Shown here: positions 9,960-26,551 of the stretch, piece by piece
Position numbering within the stretch: the stretch's first letter is position 1
Layout of the letters: each line of letters begins with the position of its first letter
Source: Erysipelothrix tonsillarum DSM 14972
Lineage (GTDB): Bacteria > Bacillota_I > Bacilli_A > Erysipelotrichales > Erysipelotrichaceae
Length of the DNA: 64,000 nt
Assembly: GCF_000373785.1 (NCBI RefSeq)
Contig: NZ_KB892378.1
Span: 388,406 to 452,405 of the forward strand
Direction of reading: 5' to 3'
Made by a program: the position numbers and the translations under genes
Notes under the pieces: generated by a model
The model's input: only the letters and a program-made list of their open reading frames with translations
The model's database searches: none
Told to the model about the DNA's origin: nothing

Positions 9960-10814
9960 ATGCTTATAGAAATCAGTAATTTATCCAAAATTTTTGGTGA
10001 TAACATCGCATTGGATAATGTTAATTTATCAATAAAAGAAAAAGAAATAGTTGGTCTTTTAGGACCGAACGGTGCTGGAAAGTCTACACTTATGAAATGT
10101 TTGTGTGGCTTAATGAATCCCTCTTCTGGCACAGTTTGTACTTACAACTGCAGTATATCTTCAGTCATAGAAGGCCCCGGCGTATATTTAGATCTCACAG
10201 GACGGCAAAATTTAAAATTTTTCGGATCTCTTAAGAAGGTTACACAAGAAAAAATTGACTTTTGTAGTGATTTAACTAAATTGGGAAGTAATCTAGACCG
10301 AAGAGTGTCAACATATTCCATGGGTATGAAACAGCGAATTGGTCTTGCTGTTGCTTTACTCAGTGAGCCTGATTTGTTGATTCTAGATGAACCAACAAAC
10401 GGATTAGATATCGAGGGTATTACAGATTTTTTAGAGGTTTTGGAATTAATTCGTAGCAACTTTAATACAAGTATATTATTGTCGTCCCATAAACTTGATG
10501 AAGTCGCAAAAATCTCTGATCGTTTTGTCTTTATTGATCATGGAAAAATTCTTGGTGAAGTGGAAAATATCCCACAATACGAGAACATCATTGATTTTAA
10601 AAGTAAACAAAATAAATCTAGTGCTTTTTTTAATGAATACAATGTAACTAAGATTAACCACGATTCCTATAGAATGACCTTAGCAGATAATGAAAATTTA
10701 GACTGTGCAATAAATAAAATAATTAAAGAACAAAATACTATCATAGGTATTGATAAAAAAATGATTAATTTAGAATCCATATATCTAAATATTATAGGTA
10801 ATAAAAATGACTAA
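9960..10814 (+). CDS. ABC transporter ATPase, BcrA/LanF (bacitracin or lantibiotic resistance) type
   Basis: The 284-aa ATPase has Walker A GPNGAGKST, signature YSMGMKQR, Walker B LLILDEP and H-loop LLSSHKLDE. At the Q-loop position the sequence is SVIEGPGVYLDLTG: a glutamate replaces glutamine, the E-loop seen in LanF-type lantibiotic immunity ATPases. It probably powers two membrane subunits encoded immediately downstream, protecting the cell from a peptide antibiotic. Start: ATG at 9960, 4 nt after AAAAGGAGG; the ten extra upstream codons are rejected. It overlaps the next gene by 8 nt. Confidence 0.88.
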   Translation: MLIEISNLSKIFGDNIALDNVNLSIKEKEIVGLLGPNGAGKSTLMKCLCGLMNPSSGTVCTYNCSISSVIEGPGVYLDLTGRQNLKFFGSLKKVTQEKIDFCSDLTKLGSNLDRRVSTYSMGMKQRIGLAVALLSEPDLLILDEPTNGLDIEGITDFLEVLELIRSNFNTSILLSSHKLDEVAKISDRFVFIDHGKILGEVENIPQYENIIDFKSKQNKSSAFFNEYNVTKINHDSYRMTLADNENLDCAINKIIKEQNTIIGIDKKMINLESIYLNIIGNKND

Positions 10815-11907
10815 ACTCATACTTTTAGAATTAAAAAAATCTATATTGCAGAAGAAAATGATTTATTTTATTCTCTTGGGTTTTTTAATTATTTCTGTAT
10901 TCTTGGGGTTTATGTTTATACAAGAACAACAATTTATAAGTTCAGAAAATAATTATTATGAGAACCTGAGTAGAGAGTATCAAAAGCTGATTGACATCAA
11001 TAGAAATCAAAAGAAAATAGAGGTTATTTCTAAAGATGAAATGGATTCCCGTAATAATTATTATAATAAAATGAGACAATATATCTATACACATGAAATG
11101 AGCATCAATAATAAATCTAAAAACATGGCTGATCTCCATCATACAAAAGACTTTTTGATTGAACAAAGTCACGGAGTGTCGTTAGCATTTGACGAAGTGA
11201 TGATCAATAACCCTAAATGGGTAGATAAACTCGATAATGACTTAGAATTGACTGAGCTTTTAATAGAAAGAAATATAAAGCCCTACTATTCTCCTTACTC
11301 AATAAATAGTTTTAATTTATTATATCAAATGGTCGAATCACCTGGCTTTATTGTTGCAATGATAATTTTGATATTATTGTTTTCTTCCGATTTTATAAGT
11401 GATGATTTTGAGTCAGGAGCATACAAAACCTATTATTGCAGAGGCGCAAATTTAAGAAAAATATATATTTCGAAAACAATAACGGGTCTGGTGTTCTGTT
11501 TTATGAATCTTATAATTCTAATTGTTTCATCATTTATTATTGGTTACGTAGTGGGTGGACTAGGAAATCCTCAGTACCCTGTTGTTACTCTTAATTCAAA
11601 TCAAATCGTTCATATTAGAATTGGTTTATTAAAATTATTAGGTTTAGTTTTGATTAACGGACTGATTGGTCCAACAGTTGGATTGATATTAAAAAATAAA
11701 AACACTATTTTAAATTATTCTATTATATATTGTTTTGTACTCCACATAAACACTACCATCACAAAAATAGAAATGCTTAATTTTTTGCCAAGTAACGCAC
11801 TTCTGTCAACGGGAAATACTTTGTATATTTTATATAATATAATCTTTGCATTTTGTTTATGGTTTATAGGACTATATGTCTTCGTCACAGTTAGGTGGGA
11901 GCGTTAA
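10807..11907 (+). CDS. ABC-2-like transporter permease, first of a paralogous pair
   Basis: The 366-aa protein has one N-terminal membrane helix (about 17-38). A predicted extracytoplasmic loop of about 140 residues, rich in Asn, Lys and Glu, follows. Five more hydrophobic segments then span roughly residues 180-360. This layout fits BcrB/LanE/G-like or bacteriocin-resistance permeases. Its start overlaps the ATPase stop by 8 nt, indicating translational coupling, and the second permease begins 1 nt after its stop. The substrate is unknown; peptide antibiotics are an inference from the E-loop ATPase. Confidence 0.8.
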   Translation: MTKLILLELKKSILQKKMIYFILLGFLIISVFLGFMFIQEQQFISSENNYYENLSREYQKLIDINRNQKKIEVISKDEMDSRNNYYNKMRQYIYTHEMSINNKSKNMADLHHTKDFLIEQSHGVSLAFDEVMINNPKWVDKLDNDLELTELLIERNIKPYYSPYSINSFNLLYQMVESPGFIVAMIILILLFSSDFISDDFESGAYKTYYCRGANLRKIYISKTITGLVFCFMNLIILIVSSFIIGYVVGGLGNPQYPVVTLNSNQIVHIRIGLLKLLGLVLINGLIGPTVGLILKNKNTILNYSIIYCFVLHINTTITKIEMLNFLPSNALLSTGNTLYILYNIIFAFCLWFIGLYVFVTVRWER

Positions 11908-19082: not shown

Positions 19083-20078
19083 CTAGTAATCCAATTGACG
19101 ATAGTAACGACGTATTTCAGTTGGATGACAATTTATTTTCTCAATATGTGCATCAATGCGACGGGTAATTGCCATCATCACAAGATGACAAATATGTCCA
19201 CGATATTGTTCACTGATGCCTTTTAATTCATAGTCTTTGGTATCAATGACTTCATAGTTTGCACAGATACGTGGAATAAAATTCACAACACGCATTGATA
19301 GTGGGCGGGATGTATCCTCACCTACAAAAATTGTAACTGGAGTATCTCGTTCTACAATTTCAAACATTCCATGAAAGAATTCGGGAGCTGTAATCGATTT
19401 GGTTGGAATCCAATGTTGTTCTTCCCAATAACACATTGCATAGGAGTACGTCGCTCCCCACTGATTACCAGCCCCCACAAAGTAATGCATTGCGTCTTCA
19501 TGATGACGTTTCGCATATGCTTCACCAAATGCGTCAGCTTCTTTTTCTACATCTACTAGTGCTTGTGGAAGATATTGATCGAATTCTTGATACATCACAT
19601 CATAATCTTCAAAATCACCGTTGCGATACATGAGACGATCCATAAACATAAAGAATTTAAGTTGTTCATTCAAACCATATGAAATCGTATAATCTCCCAT
19701 CTCTGCTAGAATAGAGTTTGGTTCATCAACAAAGGCCATGATTGTACATCCGAGACCTTTCAATACCTTAACTGCATCTACAACTTCTTGAGTTGTACCC
19801 GTCACTGAAGAATAAACAATAATTGAATTCTTCGTAATGTTTTTATTTCCTGTTACAAGATATTCCGCTGCATGCTCCACACAAACAGGGAGAGTACTCA
19901 TTTCTTTAACATGATGGGCAACCTGAAGGGCTGAAGCATACGTGCCCCCAATACCCACAAAATAAATTCCATCATAACCTTGATCATAAATAGCATCTGC
20001 TGCCTTTTCAATTTCAGGACGGAGGGCAAGTCCACCTTTAAAACTTTTTAATTGTTCTTCTTCGTTAAATTTTAACAT
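19083..20078 (-). CDS. SIS-domain phosphosugar deglycase, FrlB/GfrF-like
   Basis: The protein (331 aa) has two SIS domains (YFVGIGGTYASA near 44; HYFVGAGNQWGA near 205), a catalytic region EFFHGMFEIVE, and the C-terminal HPTEIRRYYRQLDY. The latter two closely parallel fructoselysine-6-phosphate deglycase FrlB and Salmonella GfrF. The predicted reaction splits an Amadori-sugar 6-phosphate (fructoselysine-6-P or glucoselysine-6-P) into glucose-6-P and an amino acid. It is last in the mannose-family PTS operon, 10 nt after EIID. ATG codons at 20081 and 20078 follow AGGAG; I choose 20078 for spacing. A GlmS-like isomerase role is the main alternative. Confidence 0.78.
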   Translation of the reverse strand: MLKFNEEEQLKSFKGGLALRPEIEKAADAIYDQGYDGIYFVGIGGTYASALQVAHHVKEMSTLPVCVEHAAEYLVTGNKNITKNSIIVYSSVTGTTQEVVDAVKVLKGLGCTIMAFVDEPNSILAEMGDYTISYGLNEQLKFFMFMDRLMYRNGDFEDYDVMYQEFDQYLPQALVDVEKEADAFGEAYAKRHHEDAMHYFVGAGNQWGATYSYAMCYWEEQHWIPTKSITAPEFFHGMFEIVERDTPVTIFVGEDTSRPLSMRVVNFIPRICANYEVIDTKDYELKGISEQYRGHICHLVMMAITRRIDAHIEKINCHPTEIRRYYRQLDY

Positions 20079-20088
20079 CATTTTTCTC

Positions 20089-20910
20089 CTATCCAAAGAT
20101 TCCTAAGTATACGCCGGCAATCCCTACAACCATAGTTCCAATAATTAAAATAAGTGGGTTTACTTTTTTCTTTAGTAACCAGTAGTAAAGCCATGTTGTT
20201 CCTAGACCAACAAGGCCTGGCATGATTCCATCTAATATTTCTTGGAACGGCTGTGCCGTTTCTCCGGTACCAATATTGAGCGATAATCCGGTATAAACCA
20301 TTTCTTTTGACATACCGCCAATCACCATAATTCCTAAAATCCCAGCAGCTGCAAGCACTTTATCCATTACGCCACTTTGTTGCATTTTCTCAAGATAATT
20401 AAATCCAATATTATATCCAAGATGAGCTCCAAAGTAACGTGTTAGAAATGCAGGAATGTTATAAATTAAGAAATATGCAATTGGACCTAGAATGTTCCCA
20501 CTCATCGCCAAGGATAGACCTACCCCTAGGGCAATGACCCGAATACATCCTACGAAGATGGAATCACCAATACCGGATAGTGGACCCATGAGGGCTGTTT
20601 TAATTGCACTGATAGCTGTTGCATCTACTTCACCATCTTTGTGTTTCTCTTCCATCGAACACACAATCCCACCAACAAACGGTGCAAGTTGAGGTGTAAT
20701 GTTAAAGAACTCGATGTGACGTTCCAATGCTTCCGCATACCCTTTTGGATCATCTTTGTAAATCTTTTTCAATGTTGGATCCATCATCATTCCAAATGCG
20801 AGATGCATTTGTCGTTCATAGTTCCAAGAAAACTCCATTCCCAAACTTCCTGGATTAAAGGCCATTTTGGTAATGTCTTGTTTTGTAATTACACTATTTT
20901 TAGAAGTCAT
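20089..20910 (-). CDS. PTS mannose-family EIID component
   Basis: The 273-aa membrane protein carries the EIID hallmarks: an N-terminal amphipathic region (FNPGSLGMEFSWNYERQMHLAFG), TALMGPLSGIGDSIF in the centre and a hydrophobic C-terminus. It pairs with EIIC to form the membrane translocator. Three ATG codons cluster at 20919, 20916 and 20910. The GGAGG at 20920-20924 is 9 nt from the third, which I use. The gene overlaps the EIIC 3' end, so translation is coupled. Confidence 0.92.
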   Translation of the reverse strand: MTSKNSVITKQDITKMAFNPGSLGMEFSWNYERQMHLAFGMMMDPTLKKIYKDDPKGYAEALERHIEFFNITPQLAPFVGGIVCSMEEKHKDGEVDATAISAIKTALMGPLSGIGDSIFVGCIRVIALGVGLSLAMSGNILGPIAYFLIYNIPAFLTRYFGAHLGYNIGFNYLEKMQQSGVMDKVLAAAGILGIMVIGGMSKEMVYTGLSLNIGTGETAQPFQEILDGIMPGLVGLGTTWLYYWLLKKKVNPLILIIGTMVVGIAGVYLGIFG

Positions 20911-21670
20911 CGTCATCATCCTCCATGCCTACGCCTTCAGGTGCTGGTTTAAAGCCACCTAAGAAGTCGAATTTTTCAATTACAATAATTACCCCTATAA
21001 TGGCGATTCCTAAAACCGGCACATTGAGGTACGCTGATAATACAAAACCTAAGAAATAGAACGGTACGAGTTTTTTATTTAAGATCATACGCATTAACAT
21101 CGCAAATCCAAGTGCAGGAAGAAGTCCTGCCGCTGCATCCATTCCCGCAATAATTTGTTCAGGGATTGCTGCAATTACATTCGACATTGCTTCCGCACCA
21201 AAGTAGAACCCTAAAAATACCAATAAGAACCGGCGAACCACCGTAATCATACCAATACTCCAGTGTGCAATCTTGATTCCAGAAACACTGCCTTCAACTG
21301 CTGATTTATCCGCAATACGCAGAATGAATGAGTTCACAACATTAAAGATATTTCCAATTGCAAGTGAGATTAATGCAAGTGGCATTGCAAGGGCAATCGC
21401 TGCTTCTGTTCCAGATCCCATTGAGATTGCAAACGCAGTCGCCAAGGTTCCACCCACAATAACATCGGGTGGAATGTATGCACCAATCGAAACGGCACCC
21501 ATAAAGAATAATTCTAATGTAGCCCCCATGATGACCCCTTGTTGAACATCTCCTAAAATCAATCCAACAATCGGCCCAAGAATAATTGGGCGATTTATAT
21601 ATAAGGATCCGAGTTGATCACCAAAGACACCCAAAGCAGCTACTAAACCAATTAATATTGCTTGTAACAT
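20900..21670 (-). CDS. PTS mannose-family EIIC component
   Basis: The 256-aa hydrophobic protein has the EIIC-Man/Sor signature region (LGDVQQGVIMGATLELFFMGAVSIGAYIPPD) and about seven membrane spans. It ends in an acidic EDDDDDF tail whose codons also supply the EIID ribosome binding site. It forms the transport channel with EIID. It sits 16 nt after the EIIB gene, with AAGGAGGAAG upstream of the ATG. Confidence 0.93.
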   Translation of the reverse strand: MLQAILIGLVAALGVFGDQLGSLYINRPIILGPIVGLILGDVQQGVIMGATLELFFMGAVSIGAYIPPDVIVGGTLATAFAISMGSGTEAAIALAMPLALISLAIGNIFNVVNSFILRIADKSAVEGSVSGIKIAHWSIGMITVVRRFLLVFLGFYFGAEAMSNVIAAIPEQIIAGMDAAAGLLPALGFAMLMRMILNKKLVPFYFLGFVLSAYLNVPVLGIAIIGVIIVIEKFDFLGGFKPAPEGVGMEDDDDDF

Positions 21671-21686
21671 GAATTCTTCCTCCTTT

Positions 21687-22151
21687 TTATAGTTTTACAA
21701 CCTGTTTTGAATCGCTGGATAACATTCTTATCTCAACTTCTGTTCCAGCATCCACTAATGCTTTCAATTTCTTTTTATCGGCATCACTGACAAAGATAGC
21801 TTTACTGATTTGTTCGTCATCGCCTTCTTTTTTGGTTCCTCCGAGATTAATGGATTTAATTTGTGGACATGCTTGCGCAAGTTGATATGCCACATCTATA
21901 GTCCGTACAACAATTAATAATTGATACTTATCGGTGACACCACTGTTTAATGCAGTGATGGCATCCTCAACATTCTTTATAACCAACTTCACATTTGCTG
22001 GTTTCGCAAGTTTTAAAGTCGTTTTCCACATATCATCATTTACAACATCATCATCTGCGACCAGAATACAATCTGCTCCGAGTGCATTCGTCCAAGAAAA
22101 TGCCACTTGTCCATGCAAGAGTCGATGATCAACACGACATAATACAATCAT
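21687..22151 (-). CDS. PTS mannose-family EIIB component
   Basis: The 154-aa cytoplasmic protein begins with the phosphorylation motif CRVDHRLLHGQV, in which His13 accepts phosphate from EIIA. The size and the SINLGGTKK segment are typical of IIB-Man/Sor. It transfers phosphate to the incoming sugar at the EIIC/EIID complex. Located 9 nt after EIIA, with AGGAGG before the ATG. Confidence 0.93.
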   Translation of the reverse strand: MIVLCRVDHRLLHGQVAFSWTNALGADCILVADDDVVNDDMWKTTLKLAKPANVKLVIKNVEDAITALNSGVTDKYQLLIVVRTIDVAYQLAQACPQIKSINLGGTKKEGDDEQISKAIFVSDADKKKLKALVDAGTEVEIRMLSSDSKQVVKL

Positions 22152-22160
22152 AAGTTCCTC

Positions 22161-22574
22161 CTAAAAATCTTCTTCTTCGTTCGATTCAACAAGGTCATCG
22201 TTACAATAACGTAAAGCCATACGGCATTCATTAACCTTTTCTATAAGTACTTCGCGGGTTACATCCCCTTGAATTTCAACCATAATTGAAATGATTAGGG
22301 CTAAGTTAATCCCTGCAATTAAGTGAAAATCCCGTTTTCCCATTAACTTCATAAACTCCGTATTAACGCTGCCCCCATAAATATCCGTCATCACGATGAT
22401 GTCATCATCAAGTGGAATTGACTGCATACAGGTTTCAATTTGATCGGCTACGTCGGTATTATCTACATAAGCAGAAATGATGTATACATGCTCAACTTCC
22501 CCAACGATTGCTTTTACGGCACTGTAGAATCCTTCAGCCAAGTGTTTATGACTGGCGATGATAAAATGCTTCAT
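22161..22574 (-). CDS. PTS mannose-family EIIA component
   Basis: The 137-aa protein has the IIA-Man fold signature: FIIASHKHLAEGF with phospho-acceptor His9, then DIYGGSVNTEF and LIAGINLALI. It is phosphorylated by HPr and passes phosphate to EIIB. The start overlaps the epimerase stop by one base (TAATG), showing tight coupling with the upstream gene. The tail is acidic. Confidence 0.92.
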   Translation of the reverse strand: MKHFIIASHKHLAEGFYSAVKAIVGEVEHVYIISAYVDNTDVADQIETCMQSIPLDDDIIVMTDIYGGSVNTEFMKLMGKRDFHLIAGINLALIISIMVEIQGDVTREVLIEKVNECRMALRYCNDDLVESNEEEDF

Positions 22575-23386
22575 TACAACCCTCCATTCTTTTGGTATAA
22601 TGCTAAACTTTGTGCATCTGTATTCCCTGGACTGGTTTCATAACATTGCTTGGCCGTTTCAAGTGAGAAATAGCCGTCGTAATCTGCGCGTTTAAAACTT
22701 TCTAAGTCTTCCGCAATATTGCGCTGACCATCGCCCCAAGCCTGATGCTCTGAATCTACAAAATGCACATGTACAATCCGTGAGCCAAACTCATTAAAGT
22801 AAGCTTCGATTGATTCGTCTGCACGATGCATTGCACCCATGTCTAGACAAATCTTCAGACATTCCGAGTCAACCGCTTTAAGATATTGTTTAAGGTCCTC
22901 AATCGTGTTCACTAAGCATGATTCATGTGGTTGAAGTGCTTCAATCGCAAGCGTAATCTTTTTTTGCTTGGCGTAGACACAGAGTCGGCGCATCATGCGA
23001 ATACTTCGATGATAGGCAGTATCACGATCTTCATCATAGAACGCCCAACCACTAGTAACCACGACAAATTTCGATTTGACTGCGTCCGCAACATCAATTA
23101 TATTTTTAAAATAAGCATAAACCCGTTCTTGTTGTTCCAAGGATCCGGTTGCAATATTATGGGGTTTTGGATTGGTTTGTTCTGGACATATACAAATAAT
23201 CTTGAGTCCGTAATAATCTGCCTGAGATTTAAGAGCAAATGGGTCATCGTATTGTTGATAGTCCACGAAGAAATGATGTGGACTGGTCCAAATCTCACAG
23301 GCATCAAAACCTAAATCCGAAACGGTTTTAAAAAATGTATTCAAACTGTAGTATCGATAATGACTATTCATGGCTGAAAGTTTCAA
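22574..23386 (-). CDS. Sugar isomerase/epimerase TIM barrel, FrlC-like
   Basis: The 270-aa protein is an AP-endonuclease-2-type TIM barrel. It has FDACEIWTSPHHFF near the N-terminus and metal-site residues in IEALQPHES, CLDMGAMHRA, VHVHFVDSEH and SLET. Its first 30 residues and the PHxF and E.L.P.ES motifs parallel E. coli fructoselysine 3-epimerase FrlC. This suggests it converts psicoselysine-type epimers for the SIS deglycase downstream. The start is TTG at 23386, overlapping the regulator's TGA (TTGA), with GGAGGGGG upstream. Confidence 0.75.
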   Translation of the reverse strand: MKLSAMNSHYRYYSLNTFFKTVSDLGFDACEIWTSPHHFFVDYQQYDDPFALKSQADYYGLKIICICPEQTNPKPHNIATGSLEQQERVYAYFKNIIDVADAVKSKFVVVTSGWAFYDEDRDTAYHRSIRMMRRLCVYAKQKKITLAIEALQPHESCLVNTIEDLKQYLKAVDSECLKICLDMGAMHRADESIEAYFNEFGSRIVHVHFVDSEHQAWGDGQRNIAEDLESFKRADYDGYFSLETAKQCYETSPGNTDAQSLALYQKNGGL

Positions 23387-26085
23387 AACGCATCCCCCTC
23401 CTCTCGATCTCGTTTTTTATCGTTTTCTATATAGTCATACAATAACGCAATTTCCGAGACCGGTAGCACCACGTTATAGTGTTCTAACATGGGTCCAAAA
23501 CTCTCATTTACATCCCGTATGAAGGTTTGATGTTCGGATTCAAACCTTTGTACGTCCTTATAATCATCAATCGCTGTTTTCGTTACAAGGCGCTCAATTA
23601 AGAAACAGACATGAATGTAAATCCCTACAATGGTCTTACTTTGAAACGTTTTGGCCATTTTACGTTCTAAGTGTGATGTCGAGTCACTGACAAAGTTCAA
23701 GAGTTTATTTGCATTAAGAATGGTTAAATTTTGCATAACATTCTGCAATGAAAAGTTCTTTAACAGATTTCGATTAAAAATCTCAATTTCTGATTCATCT
23801 AAGTAATCAGCCAATGCTTGGTCAACGATTGAAATGTCTTTAAAACTTACAATATCTTCCAAACTCACACAGCGAATTGTATCCAGCGGTAACGAATGGG
23901 GCTTCACCATCAGCATCACTTCAAATTTATCAAACAAGGGATCATTAAGACCGTTTGTTAATAGGTCTTTAAAGTCATAACTGATAAATCGTAAATCAAT
24001 TGTTTTCGGTAAGGATTGTTTAAACAGATTTACCATTCGATCCGCTACCGAAACGCCTGCATCACTAACAAATACCATGGCTTTGGTTTTTTCAGCGCGA
24101 TTCAATATTTTATATTTGGTGATTGCTTTTTGTGATGCTTTTTCAAGGATTTCCTCAATGGGATACTCTTGACGGACCATTGAACCAATATGCAGGGCAA
24201 TGGCTGTGGAACTGTTATTCACAACACCCACGTTTAGATCTTTGAGGATTCGATCACCAATCAATTCTAGAGAACCCATATCCACAAGTAAAATCAAGTT
24301 TTTATAATAGGGATTTAGAGATATATAATCGTTTACCTTCACGATGATTTCTTCACTACTACTATCTAGAGGCATATCAAAAGCATCAAAGATATGTTCT
24401 CCCAATAATTGATTTGCTGCATCCGCAATGCTGCTAGCAGTTGAGTATCCATGCGATACGATCACCGCTGCCGTGTCTTTATGTTTAATATTGTCGTTGT
24501 AGAAATAAATATTAAGAATTAAGAAAATAAGATTGAAGTCATTTAGTTTCAACTCCAGAGCTTGATAAATCATTTTAGAAATTTCGTTTGAAATCATAAA
24601 CATGTCATACATTTCTTCTTTTAAAAATTCAAGCAAAGCGTTGATATCTTTTCGATGTTTAAAAGCCCACCGGTCCACCTTAATTTTTTCATGAGATGAT
24701 GACAATAAGACACGCGATAAAACAAAACTACAATTGCTGGGAAGGTTAATCTTATTTTTCTGTTTGACGTGTTCCAAAACATCATCAATAATCTTTTCTA
24801 AACCATGTACTCTTTGTAGACTGTAGGATTGATCAAAAATCATCAGATCGTAATAATTTCGCATTGCCTCATAATCTTGAGCCAACATGTCCCGATAGGA
24901 TATTTGATTGAGTTGAAAAGCATTAAATGCCTTAAGAATGTTTTTAAACAACTGAACAATCTTGTCAGTCGATTCATGAATGACATACGTATCAATTTCA
25001 AGTAATTGCTTTAAATCATTTTCCTTAGATACAGTATAATTTAGCTTGTCTTCAGGCAGGTGGTAGATATGACAATGCATCACACCCTGATGATTGCTTT
25101 CTAATGCTGTTGCACAAATACGCGTAATACATTTTTTCAACTCATGAATATCTTCATCAAATTTCAATTGTAATAAGGCTTCGAGAAGTTTGTAAGAAAT
25201 AAAAATTTTAATACCCAGTTTCTGTTGTTCTTGTTTAAAAAACTTGAGAATGAACTGTTCTTTTTCCTGAGTACCGCGCTGATCAAAATGAGGAATCTTA
25301 CAAATAATCGGTAAACTCTGAAGTAACGAATAATCAAAAGCATCCTCTGGGTCATAGGTTGTGCCGAAGACAATCCGACAATTTACTTTGACAACTTTTC
25401 GATCTTTAAGGTAATAACCGTCTTTAATAATGTTTGATAGTTGGTACTGGATATCAGCTCGCATGCGATCTGCATGCTCGATATATAAGATACCAATATC
25501 TTTCCGTTCTAAAATACCGGTATTGCCCGCTTTCCCAAAGAGTACAGTTTCAGCATCGCATTGAGGTTCCATAATCTTGAGATGTTCGATATTTTGTCCT
25601 TCTTGAATCAAACCTTGCTCAATACAGAATTTATGAATCATGCGCGATAAGTATGTCTTCCCACTTCCACGCTGACCATATAAAACAATCGGTAATCCGC
25701 GTCCCGGATATAGCAATGCCGACTTAATTTGTTGAACGATATGGCTCAATGAACCATCAAATCCAATTAAGTCTTGGAATGAGTCATAGGCTTCCGAGCC
25801 TTGAATTTCATCTAATAATTCTTTAACACTTAAATACTCACGTGATAAATCATGGACTTGATATAATTTTTCAAACTCATGTTTATCAAGATAATATACA
25901 GGTCGTGACGCAATTTTAATCAGGAATCCCTCATTAAACAATTCATTGAGATACTGTGATGTCAACGATCGGCTTAGGTGCAGCGATTCCGCAATGACGC
26001 TTGTCGTGAGTAAGGAAAAGTCATGATCCAGTAGTATTTGTGTTTCTAAAACAAGATATTGATAAATCTGTTCTTTTGTGTTCAT
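23383..26085 (-). CDS. LevR-like PRD/AAA+ transcriptional regulator
   Basis: The 900-aa regulator reads: winged HTH (1-70), AAA+ domain with Walker A GQRGSGKT (137-144) and degenerate Walker B (LYIEHADR), then a PRD-like helical region (about 400-530). A EIIA-Man-like domain carries phospho-acceptor His545 (IVSHG). An EIIB-like region follows, then a C-terminal PRD with His825 (YIHVCFLIERL). LevR proteins activate mannose-family PTS operons in response to phosphorylation. The sigma-54 contact loop GAFTGA is absent; the segment after LFG is shortened. It is the first gene of the operon it presumably controls. The ATG at 26085 has GGAG 8-9 nt upstream; the 37-codon upstream extension is rejected. 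Confidence 0.85.
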   Translation of the reverse strand: MNTKEQIYQYLVLETQILLDHDFSLLTTSVIAESLHLSRSLTSQYLNELFNEGFLIKIASRPVYYLDKHEFEKLYQVHDLSREYLSVKELLDEIQGSEAYDSFQDLIGFDGSLSHIVQQIKSALLYPGRGLPIVLYGQRGSGKTYLSRMIHKFCIEQGLIQEGQNIEHLKIMEPQCDAETVLFGKAGNTGILERKDIGILYIEHADRMRADIQYQLSNIIKDGYYLKDRKVVKVNCRIVFGTTYDPEDAFDYSLLQSLPIICKIPHFDQRGTQEKEQFILKFFKQEQQKLGIKIFISYKLLEALLQLKFDEDIHELKKCITRICATALESNHQGVMHCHIYHLPEDKLNYTVSKENDLKQLLEIDTYVIHESTDKIVQLFKNILKAFNAFQLNQISYRDMLAQDYEAMRNYYDLMIFDQSYSLQRVHGLEKIIDDVLEHVKQKNKINLPSNCSFVLSRVLLSSSHEKIKVDRWAFKHRKDINALLEFLKEEMYDMFMISNEISKMIYQALELKLNDFNLIFLILNIYFYNDNIKHKDTAAVIVSHGYSTASSIADAANQLLGEHIFDAFDMPLDSSSEEIIVKVNDYISLNPYYKNLILLVDMGSLELIGDRILKDLNVGVVNNSSTAIALHIGSMVRQEYPIEEILEKASQKAITKYKILNRAEKTKAMVFVSDAGVSVADRMVNLFKQSLPKTIDLRFISYDFKDLLTNGLNDPLFDKFEVMLMVKPHSLPLDTIRCVSLEDIVSFKDISIVDQALADYLDESEIEIFNRNLLKNFSLQNVMQNLTILNANKLLNFVSDSTSHLERKMAKTFQSKTIVGIYIHVCFLIERLVTKTAIDDYKDVQRFESEHQTFIRDVNESFGPMLEHYNVVLPVSEIALLYDYIENDKKRDREEGDAF

Positions 26086-26202
26086 ATACACTCCTTCTGT
26101 TCCAATGTTGACTTTAACTGTCTTTATTGTACGAAGTGGATGAACGTACGTCCTTAGTTTCTTCGTTCTTCGACAAAAACAGCTAAAAACAAACATTTAA
26201 TA

Positions 26203-26500: not shown

Positions 26501-26551
26501 ACGTCTTTGAAGTAATTTCCTCAATCATATAGAAAAGGAGAAGTGAATTAT

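Follow-up and report, generated by a model that had tools for sequence, protein, structure and literature searches.

A mannose-family PTS operon of Erysipelothrix tonsillarum with an FrlC-like epimerase predicted to act on phosphorylated Amadori compounds

Heating of food yields glycated amino acids as a major product, and the gut- and animal-associated bacteria that use them are being mapped through gene content. In this study, we ask what is encoded by a locus of Erysipelothrix tonsillarum DSM 14972 in which a mannose-family phosphotransferase system (PTS), a deglycase-like SIS protein and an FrlC-like epimerase stand side by side, and whether that epimerase handles a free or a phosphorylated substrate. 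The window, that is, the whole stretch of DNA that was analysed, is 64,000 nucleotides long. E. coli FrlC reportedly acts on unphosphorylated fructoselysine and psicoselysine, and in the E. coli frl pathway the free compound is said to be imported, epimerised by FrlC and then phosphorylated by FrlD. Since the FrlC substrate is unphosphorylated, whereas PTS import yields a 6-phosphate and the unit described here has no kinase, the epimerase of this locus would have to handle phosphate.

Seven co-directional genes occupy 26196-19083 on the minus strand as one tightly packed unit, in which the regulator and epimerase genes overlap by 4 bases and intergenic gaps range from -20 to +16 bases. In order of transcription, the features are:

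23383-26196, minus strand: PRD-type regulator of 937 aa, LevR/DagR-like, with winged helix, AAA+, PRD and EIIA-Man domains; first gene of the unit
22574-23386, minus strand: FrlC-like TIM-barrel 3-epimerase (AP_endonuc_2), TTG start; best NCBIfam model FrlC
22161-22574, minus strand: PTS EIIA, mannose family (PF03610)
21687-22151, minus strand: PTS EIIB, sorbose/mannose family (PF03830), 58% identical to Klebsiella gfr EIIB
20900-21670, minus strand: PTS EIIC, mannose family (PF03609), 44% identical to Klebsiella gfr EIIC
20089-20919, minus strand: PTS EIID, mannose family (PF03613), 43% identical to Klebsiella gfr EIID, placed by tree
19083-20096, minus strand: predicted SIS-domain fructosamine-6-phosphate deglycase of GfrF type, TTG start, assigned by BLAST bits, trees and catalytic residues
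19056-19078, minus strand: terminator-like hairpin with a T-rich tail, 3' of the SIS gene; end of the unit

The Pfam scores of EIID, EIIC, EIIB, EIIA, SIS and AP_endonuc_2 lie far over cut-off. An earlier note on this DNA had described a mannose-family EIIA/B/C/D flanked by an FrlB/GfrF-like SIS protein and an FrlC-like epimerase, and open reading frames, strand, order and Pfam matches all agree with it. The span it gave, 19083-26085, holds for gene content but not for its end, which falls just inside the regulator; the unit starts at 26196. The gene order is kept in other Erysipelothrix species and in distant phyla, and is therefore not due to chance. A further PTS gene, of GlcNAc type and separate from the unit, lies divergently at 26543, and a LicT-like antiterminator gene is found further out. 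Within the unit there is neither a fructosamine kinase gene nor another transporter gene. The genome (1.93 Mb) contains one deglycase of GfrF/FrlB type and one FrlC-like epimerase; GfrE is absent from the unit, and the sole further SIS match in the genome is partial, at 27%. With no GfrE-type protein in the unit and one full deglycase in the genome, a glucoselysine (Heyns) route was set aside, and an epimerase flipping C-2 of glucoselysine or mannoselysine was dropped. When the genus was compared (L033, L034 and L071), the epimerase and EIIA were 71-76% identical, and the regulator, EIIB, EIIC, EIID and SIS about 86-97%; four-fold sites, examined for recombination as the cause of the lower values in all but the L034 SIS, EIID and EIIC, were saturated throughout.

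On balance, we lean towards reading the operon as one transcription unit for the catabolism of Amadori compounds, which combines PTS import, a psicosamine-6-phosphate 3-epimerase and a GfrF-type deglycase. Its substrates would be fructosamines, among them fructoselysine and psicoselysine, its epimer at C-3. To judge from its family, the EIIABCD permease would import the conjugate and phosphorylate it at C-6. The metal-dependent FrlC-like epimerase would then interconvert psicose-type and fructose-type 6-phosphates, with the 6-phosphate held by Lys74 of the beta3 loop, Arg222 of the beta7 loop and perhaps Arg11 of the beta1 loop, residues presumably gained in this clade, and its product would feed the GfrF-type SIS deglycase. 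The PRD regulator would sense PTS flux and switch the unit on without sigma-54. As a whole, the operon would split conjugates from heated or aged food for fuel. One point against this reading is that little is known of how abundant psicose-type Amadori compounds are in nature.

The assignment of the epimerase rests on family, fold and metal site. FrlC is the best of all NCBIfam models (120.7 bits, with D-psicose epimerase at 80), and the barrel is thus not closer to unrelated epimerases, in line with the earlier note, though it is 27% identical to FrlC and falls under the curated FrlC equivalog cut-off of 305 bits. AlphaFold predicts a confident barrel (pLDDT 90), whose closest folds are the D-psicose/D-tagatose 3-epimerases, with D-psicose 3-epimerases best by Foldseek, and UlaE. 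Residues E149, D182, H208 and E243 match the metal ligands Glu152, Asp185, His211 and Glu246 of the Pseudomonas cichorii D-tagatose 3-epimerase (DTE; PMC4965175) at exact spacing, and are invariant in 21 PTS-linked epimerases and in seven full-length other relatives. Where DTE has the substrate residues His188 and Arg217, this epimerase has Ala185 and His214, and FrlC and the kinase/ABC-linked relatives likewise have Ala or Gly and His at these positions. These replacements point to an Amadori-type substrate and away from a free ketose.

The SIS protein was compared with solved chains and with characterised deglycases. By phmmer, its best matches were 2a3n and 8glr (about 215 bits), followed by 3eua (116) and then 3fkj and FraB-like chains, with GlmS at 30. 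We take 2a3n to be Salmonella STM4540, the product of the gfrF gene, an assignment backed by an 83% match inside a Klebsiella operon with the full gfr order. By BLAST, the SIS protein scored 219 bits with Salmonella GfrF, 124 with B. subtilis FrlB, 107 with FraB and 73 with E. coli FrlB. Set against the 30 bits for GlmS, these values leave GfrF as by far the nearer relative, as the note had supposed. It reaches 67 bits on the curated FrlB model, whose cut-off of 430 says little here because Klebsiella GfrF itself scores just 86. Moreover, E226 and H242 correspond to the catalytic Glu/His pair of FraB, E214 and H230, and are invariant across all sequences compared; the FraB E214A mutant has no catalytic activity (PMC12755824). 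In trees, the protein lies outside the Salmonella GfrF clade, in a sister clade at about 35% identity in which we found no characterised member. Lysine is thus a tentative assignment for the amine, and cleavage of fructoselysine-6-phosphate, to glucose-6-phosphate and lysine, is a predicted activity of the SIS protein.

The permease and the deglycase differ in how they are distributed among operons with this epimerase. In a concatenated EIIC+EIID tree, the permeases linked to the epimerase, 17 in all, group in one clade (100/100), sister to the gfr permeases and apart from ManYZ and AgaCD, whereas a single clade of the accompanying deglycases is rejected (p-AU 2e-50). The deglycases fall into three lineages: one with Salmonella, Klebsiella and Cetobacterium GfrF, one with Breznakia, Longicatena and Coriobacteriia, and one that unites the SIS protein of the window with deglycases of Enterococcus plasmids, whose operons showed no epimerase next to the deglycase. 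Therefore, the epimerase and PTS appear to be a fixed pair and the deglycase an exchangeable part. In three epimerase operons with the same PTS (L039, L040 and L047), the SIS protein is 60-62% identical to Salmonella GfrF. GfrF cleaves fructoselysine-6-phosphate (PMC12735817), and since one of the exchangeable deglycases belongs to the GfrF clade, the module is most likely for fructoselysine-type compounds. We follow PMC12735817 for the functions of GfrE and GfrF; their substrates are assigned in opposite ways in the introduction and the Figure 1 legend of PMC12675984.

Two side observations concern this deglycase family. Two Eubacteriaceae operons (L043 and L054) each have two deglycases of the same lineage flanking the epimerase on either side. 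An operon on the conjugative E. faecium plasmid pC10-7-1 (L056:6498-11791), with a counterpart in E. raffinosus (L057), may be of the E. faecium gfr type: beside EII genes resembling those of gfr and a HAD phosphatase, it has two SIS proteins, one sharing 61% identity with that of the window and the other GlmS-like, with 30% to Klebsiella GfrE.

The exchange of deglycases also bears on the amine. The same PTS, epimerase and deglycase chemistry could serve Amadori compounds in which epsilon-lysine is replaced by a different amino acid or amine, which we regard as rather unlikely: the deglycase is the part of the module that is exchanged, the clade of the window protein stands apart from Salmonella GfrF, and members of the superfamily serve different amines, with FraB being a fructose-aspartate deglycase (PMC12755824 and annotation). 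Against this, the same PTS/epimerase module is paired with GfrF orthologues in Clostridium and in an Erysipelotrichaceae metagenome-assembled genome (MAG), which suggests one substrate class.

Whether the epimerase works on a phosphate can be approached through its basic residues. Exactly three basic columns of the PTS-linked clade (K74, R222 and R11) are missing from FrlC-like relatives linked to kinase, ABC transporter or permease genes. Position 74 is Lys in 21/21 epimerases of the clade and Tyr in all eight of those relatives; position 222 is Arg in 21/21 and Leu, Met or Ile in all seven, the set outside the PTS clade being small (seven to eight sequences). Arg at position 11 occurs in 20 of the 21 and in none of the eight, a count that is biased because R11 falls within one of the search patterns by which the sequences were retrieved, while K74 and R222 lie outside both. 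The 21 include L041, which itself has no PTS nearby. All three residues are present in the fourth genus member, L071. In the AlphaFold model, the loops at the C-terminal end of strands beta1, beta3 and beta7 carry R11, K74 and R222, respectively; this is the active-site face, and confidence is low for the K74 loop. We predict that K74 and R222, perhaps with R11, form a phosphate-binding site, although these residues could reflect shared ancestry rather than phosphate adaptation, because the PTS-linked epimerases are one clade. PTS context and the clade-specific K74 and R222 together make activity on the phosphate the most likely interpretation, so that this enzyme, unlike E. coli FrlC, probably works on an already phosphorylated compound.

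It seems improbable that the epimerase instead acts on an unphosphorylated psicose-type compound, which would enter by another way or be dephosphorylated inside, with the PTS as a parallel route. The reported activity of FrlC on the free compound would fit such an arrangement, and so would L041, a Coriobacteriaceae MAG in which the epimerase has no PTS nearby and is flanked by HAD phosphatase-like genes; but the unit offers neither fructosamine kinase nor a second transporter, PTS and epimerase are co-inherited, and only in the PTS-linked clade do K74 and R222 replace an invariant Tyr and a hydrophobic residue. The L041 epimerase (9968-10834, 50% identical) carries K74 and R222 between the two HAD-like genes, with no PTS or SIS gene within the stretch examined. 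Least probable of all is a PTS operon for hexosamines or rare ketoses, in which the SIS protein would be an isomerase of GlmS/AgaS type and the barrel an ordinary ketose 3-epimerase. The frequent use of mannose-family PTS for hexosamines and ketoses, AgaF and AgaW as the best NCBIfam models of EIIA and EIIC, and the Foldseek match to D-psicose 3-epimerases are opposed by the GfrF and GlmS scores of the SIS protein, by the position of AgaCD and ManYZ outside the gfr-type permease group and by the loss of DTE His188 and Arg217; on these scores and residues, a GlmS-type SIS and a DTE-type epimerase were rejected.

Returning to Amadori-compound catabolism as the preferred reading, the regulator also departs from those of the gfr type. 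The GAFTGA loop, which makes the contact with sigma-54, is missing from its AAA+ domain, and no match to RpoN (PF04552) was obtained in the genome. The loop is likewise missing from every regulator examined in an epimerase operon (L033, L034, L036, L038-L040, L042, L047, L052 and L053) and kept in Klebsiella GfrR and in the E. raffinosus regulator of L057. Loss of GAFTGA accompanies sigma-70 dependence in TyrR, DhaR and HupR (PMC3162934), and because of this precedent these regulators may represent a sigma-54-independent LevR branch.

To place the module more widely, an alignment of five epimerases was scanned against one genome per species (84,980 species), which yielded 18 relatives at 39-54% identity; the scan rests on two short peptide patterns and so will have missed members. 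They belong to Erysipelotrichaceae, Clostridia, Coriobacteriia, Enterococcus raffinosus and one Melainabacteria MAG. The same EII genes adjoin the epimerase in 17 of the 18, and the SIS gene is visible in 15; of the remaining three, two contigs end short of its expected place and the third, L041, has neither PTS nor SIS. The epimerase was also found on a Collinsella aerofaciens plasmid, and viral contigs scanned with the alignment gave no match. It is present in 4 of 13 Erysipelothrix genomes, and the module appears sparse, as close epimerase relatives occur in 5 of 395 genomes sampled from the class. We consider it an even chance that these proteins are a psicosamine-6-phosphate 3-epimerase family, derived from the FrlC type through a Lys/Arg phosphate site and conserved together with a dedicated PTS as a module that has taken on deglycases from three different lineages.

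If this is true, the PTS-linked epimerase would widen the range of usable glycated compounds, by an activity undescribed in the part of the literature that was searched. We found no account of a PTS-linked Amadori epimerase in the titles, abstracts and passages covered, which took in few subscription papers, and an earlier description may exist. The suggestion that the layout is uncharacterised thus stands within these sources, but it is no one-off, given the PTS neighbourhood shared by nearly all relatives. Since the curated models for FrlC and FrlB stay under their cut-offs here, such an epimerase can easily go unnoticed. The predicted role of Lys74 and Arg222 makes a switch from free to phosphorylated substrate open to direct test.

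Several known systems come close to this operon. The gfrABCDEF operon is reportedly found in Salmonella, Klebsiella and Enterococcus faecium. It is known in Salmonella (PMC12675984), and gfr with the sigma-54 regulator GfrR has been predicted in Clostridium and Clostridioides (PMC6615313). The likeness to gfr lies in import by mannose-family EIIA/B/C/D, a GfrF-type SIS deglycase and an adjoining regulator with PRD and EIIA domains. In contrast to gfr, the operon described here has an epimerase and no GfrE (glucoselysine-6-phosphate deglycase), its regulator is without GAFTGA and its permease belongs to a separate sister clade. With E. coli frlABCD it shares a deglycase and an FrlC-type 3-epimerase; there, the permease FrlA and the kinase FrlD are used and epimerisation precedes phosphorylation, whereas here phosphorylation would occur during uptake. 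The earlier view of gfr transport joined to the E. coli frl epimerase is thus right about the combination of PTS, deglycase and FrlC-type enzyme but not about a plain E. coli epimerase, the substrate here being a predicted phosphate. A gfr-type PTS with deglycase and an FrlC-type epimerase were each known already; what would be new is a PTS-linked epimerase acting on the phosphate. The seven-gene fructoselysine PTS operon of F. prausnitzii is composed of gfrABCDF without gfrE, a different regulator and one gene unlike the Salmonella gfr genes (PMC12136445); with this gfrABCDF-type content and one extra gene, it could have the same layout. In rhizobial and Klebsiella plasmid operons, a deglycase and an FrlC-like epimerase also occur together, but with an ABC transporter and a PfkB kinase, and their epimerases have Tyr at position 74 and Leu or Ile at 222. 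Lastly, the E. coli ula operon is a PTS operon in which a phosphoketose is the substrate of UlaE, a TIM-barrel 3-epimerase with the fold seen here, and this speaks for the preferred reading. The UlaE substrate is a pentulose-5-phosphate from ascorbate, the ula PTS is of another family, the operon has no deglycase, and UlaE is 19% identical to the epimerase described here.
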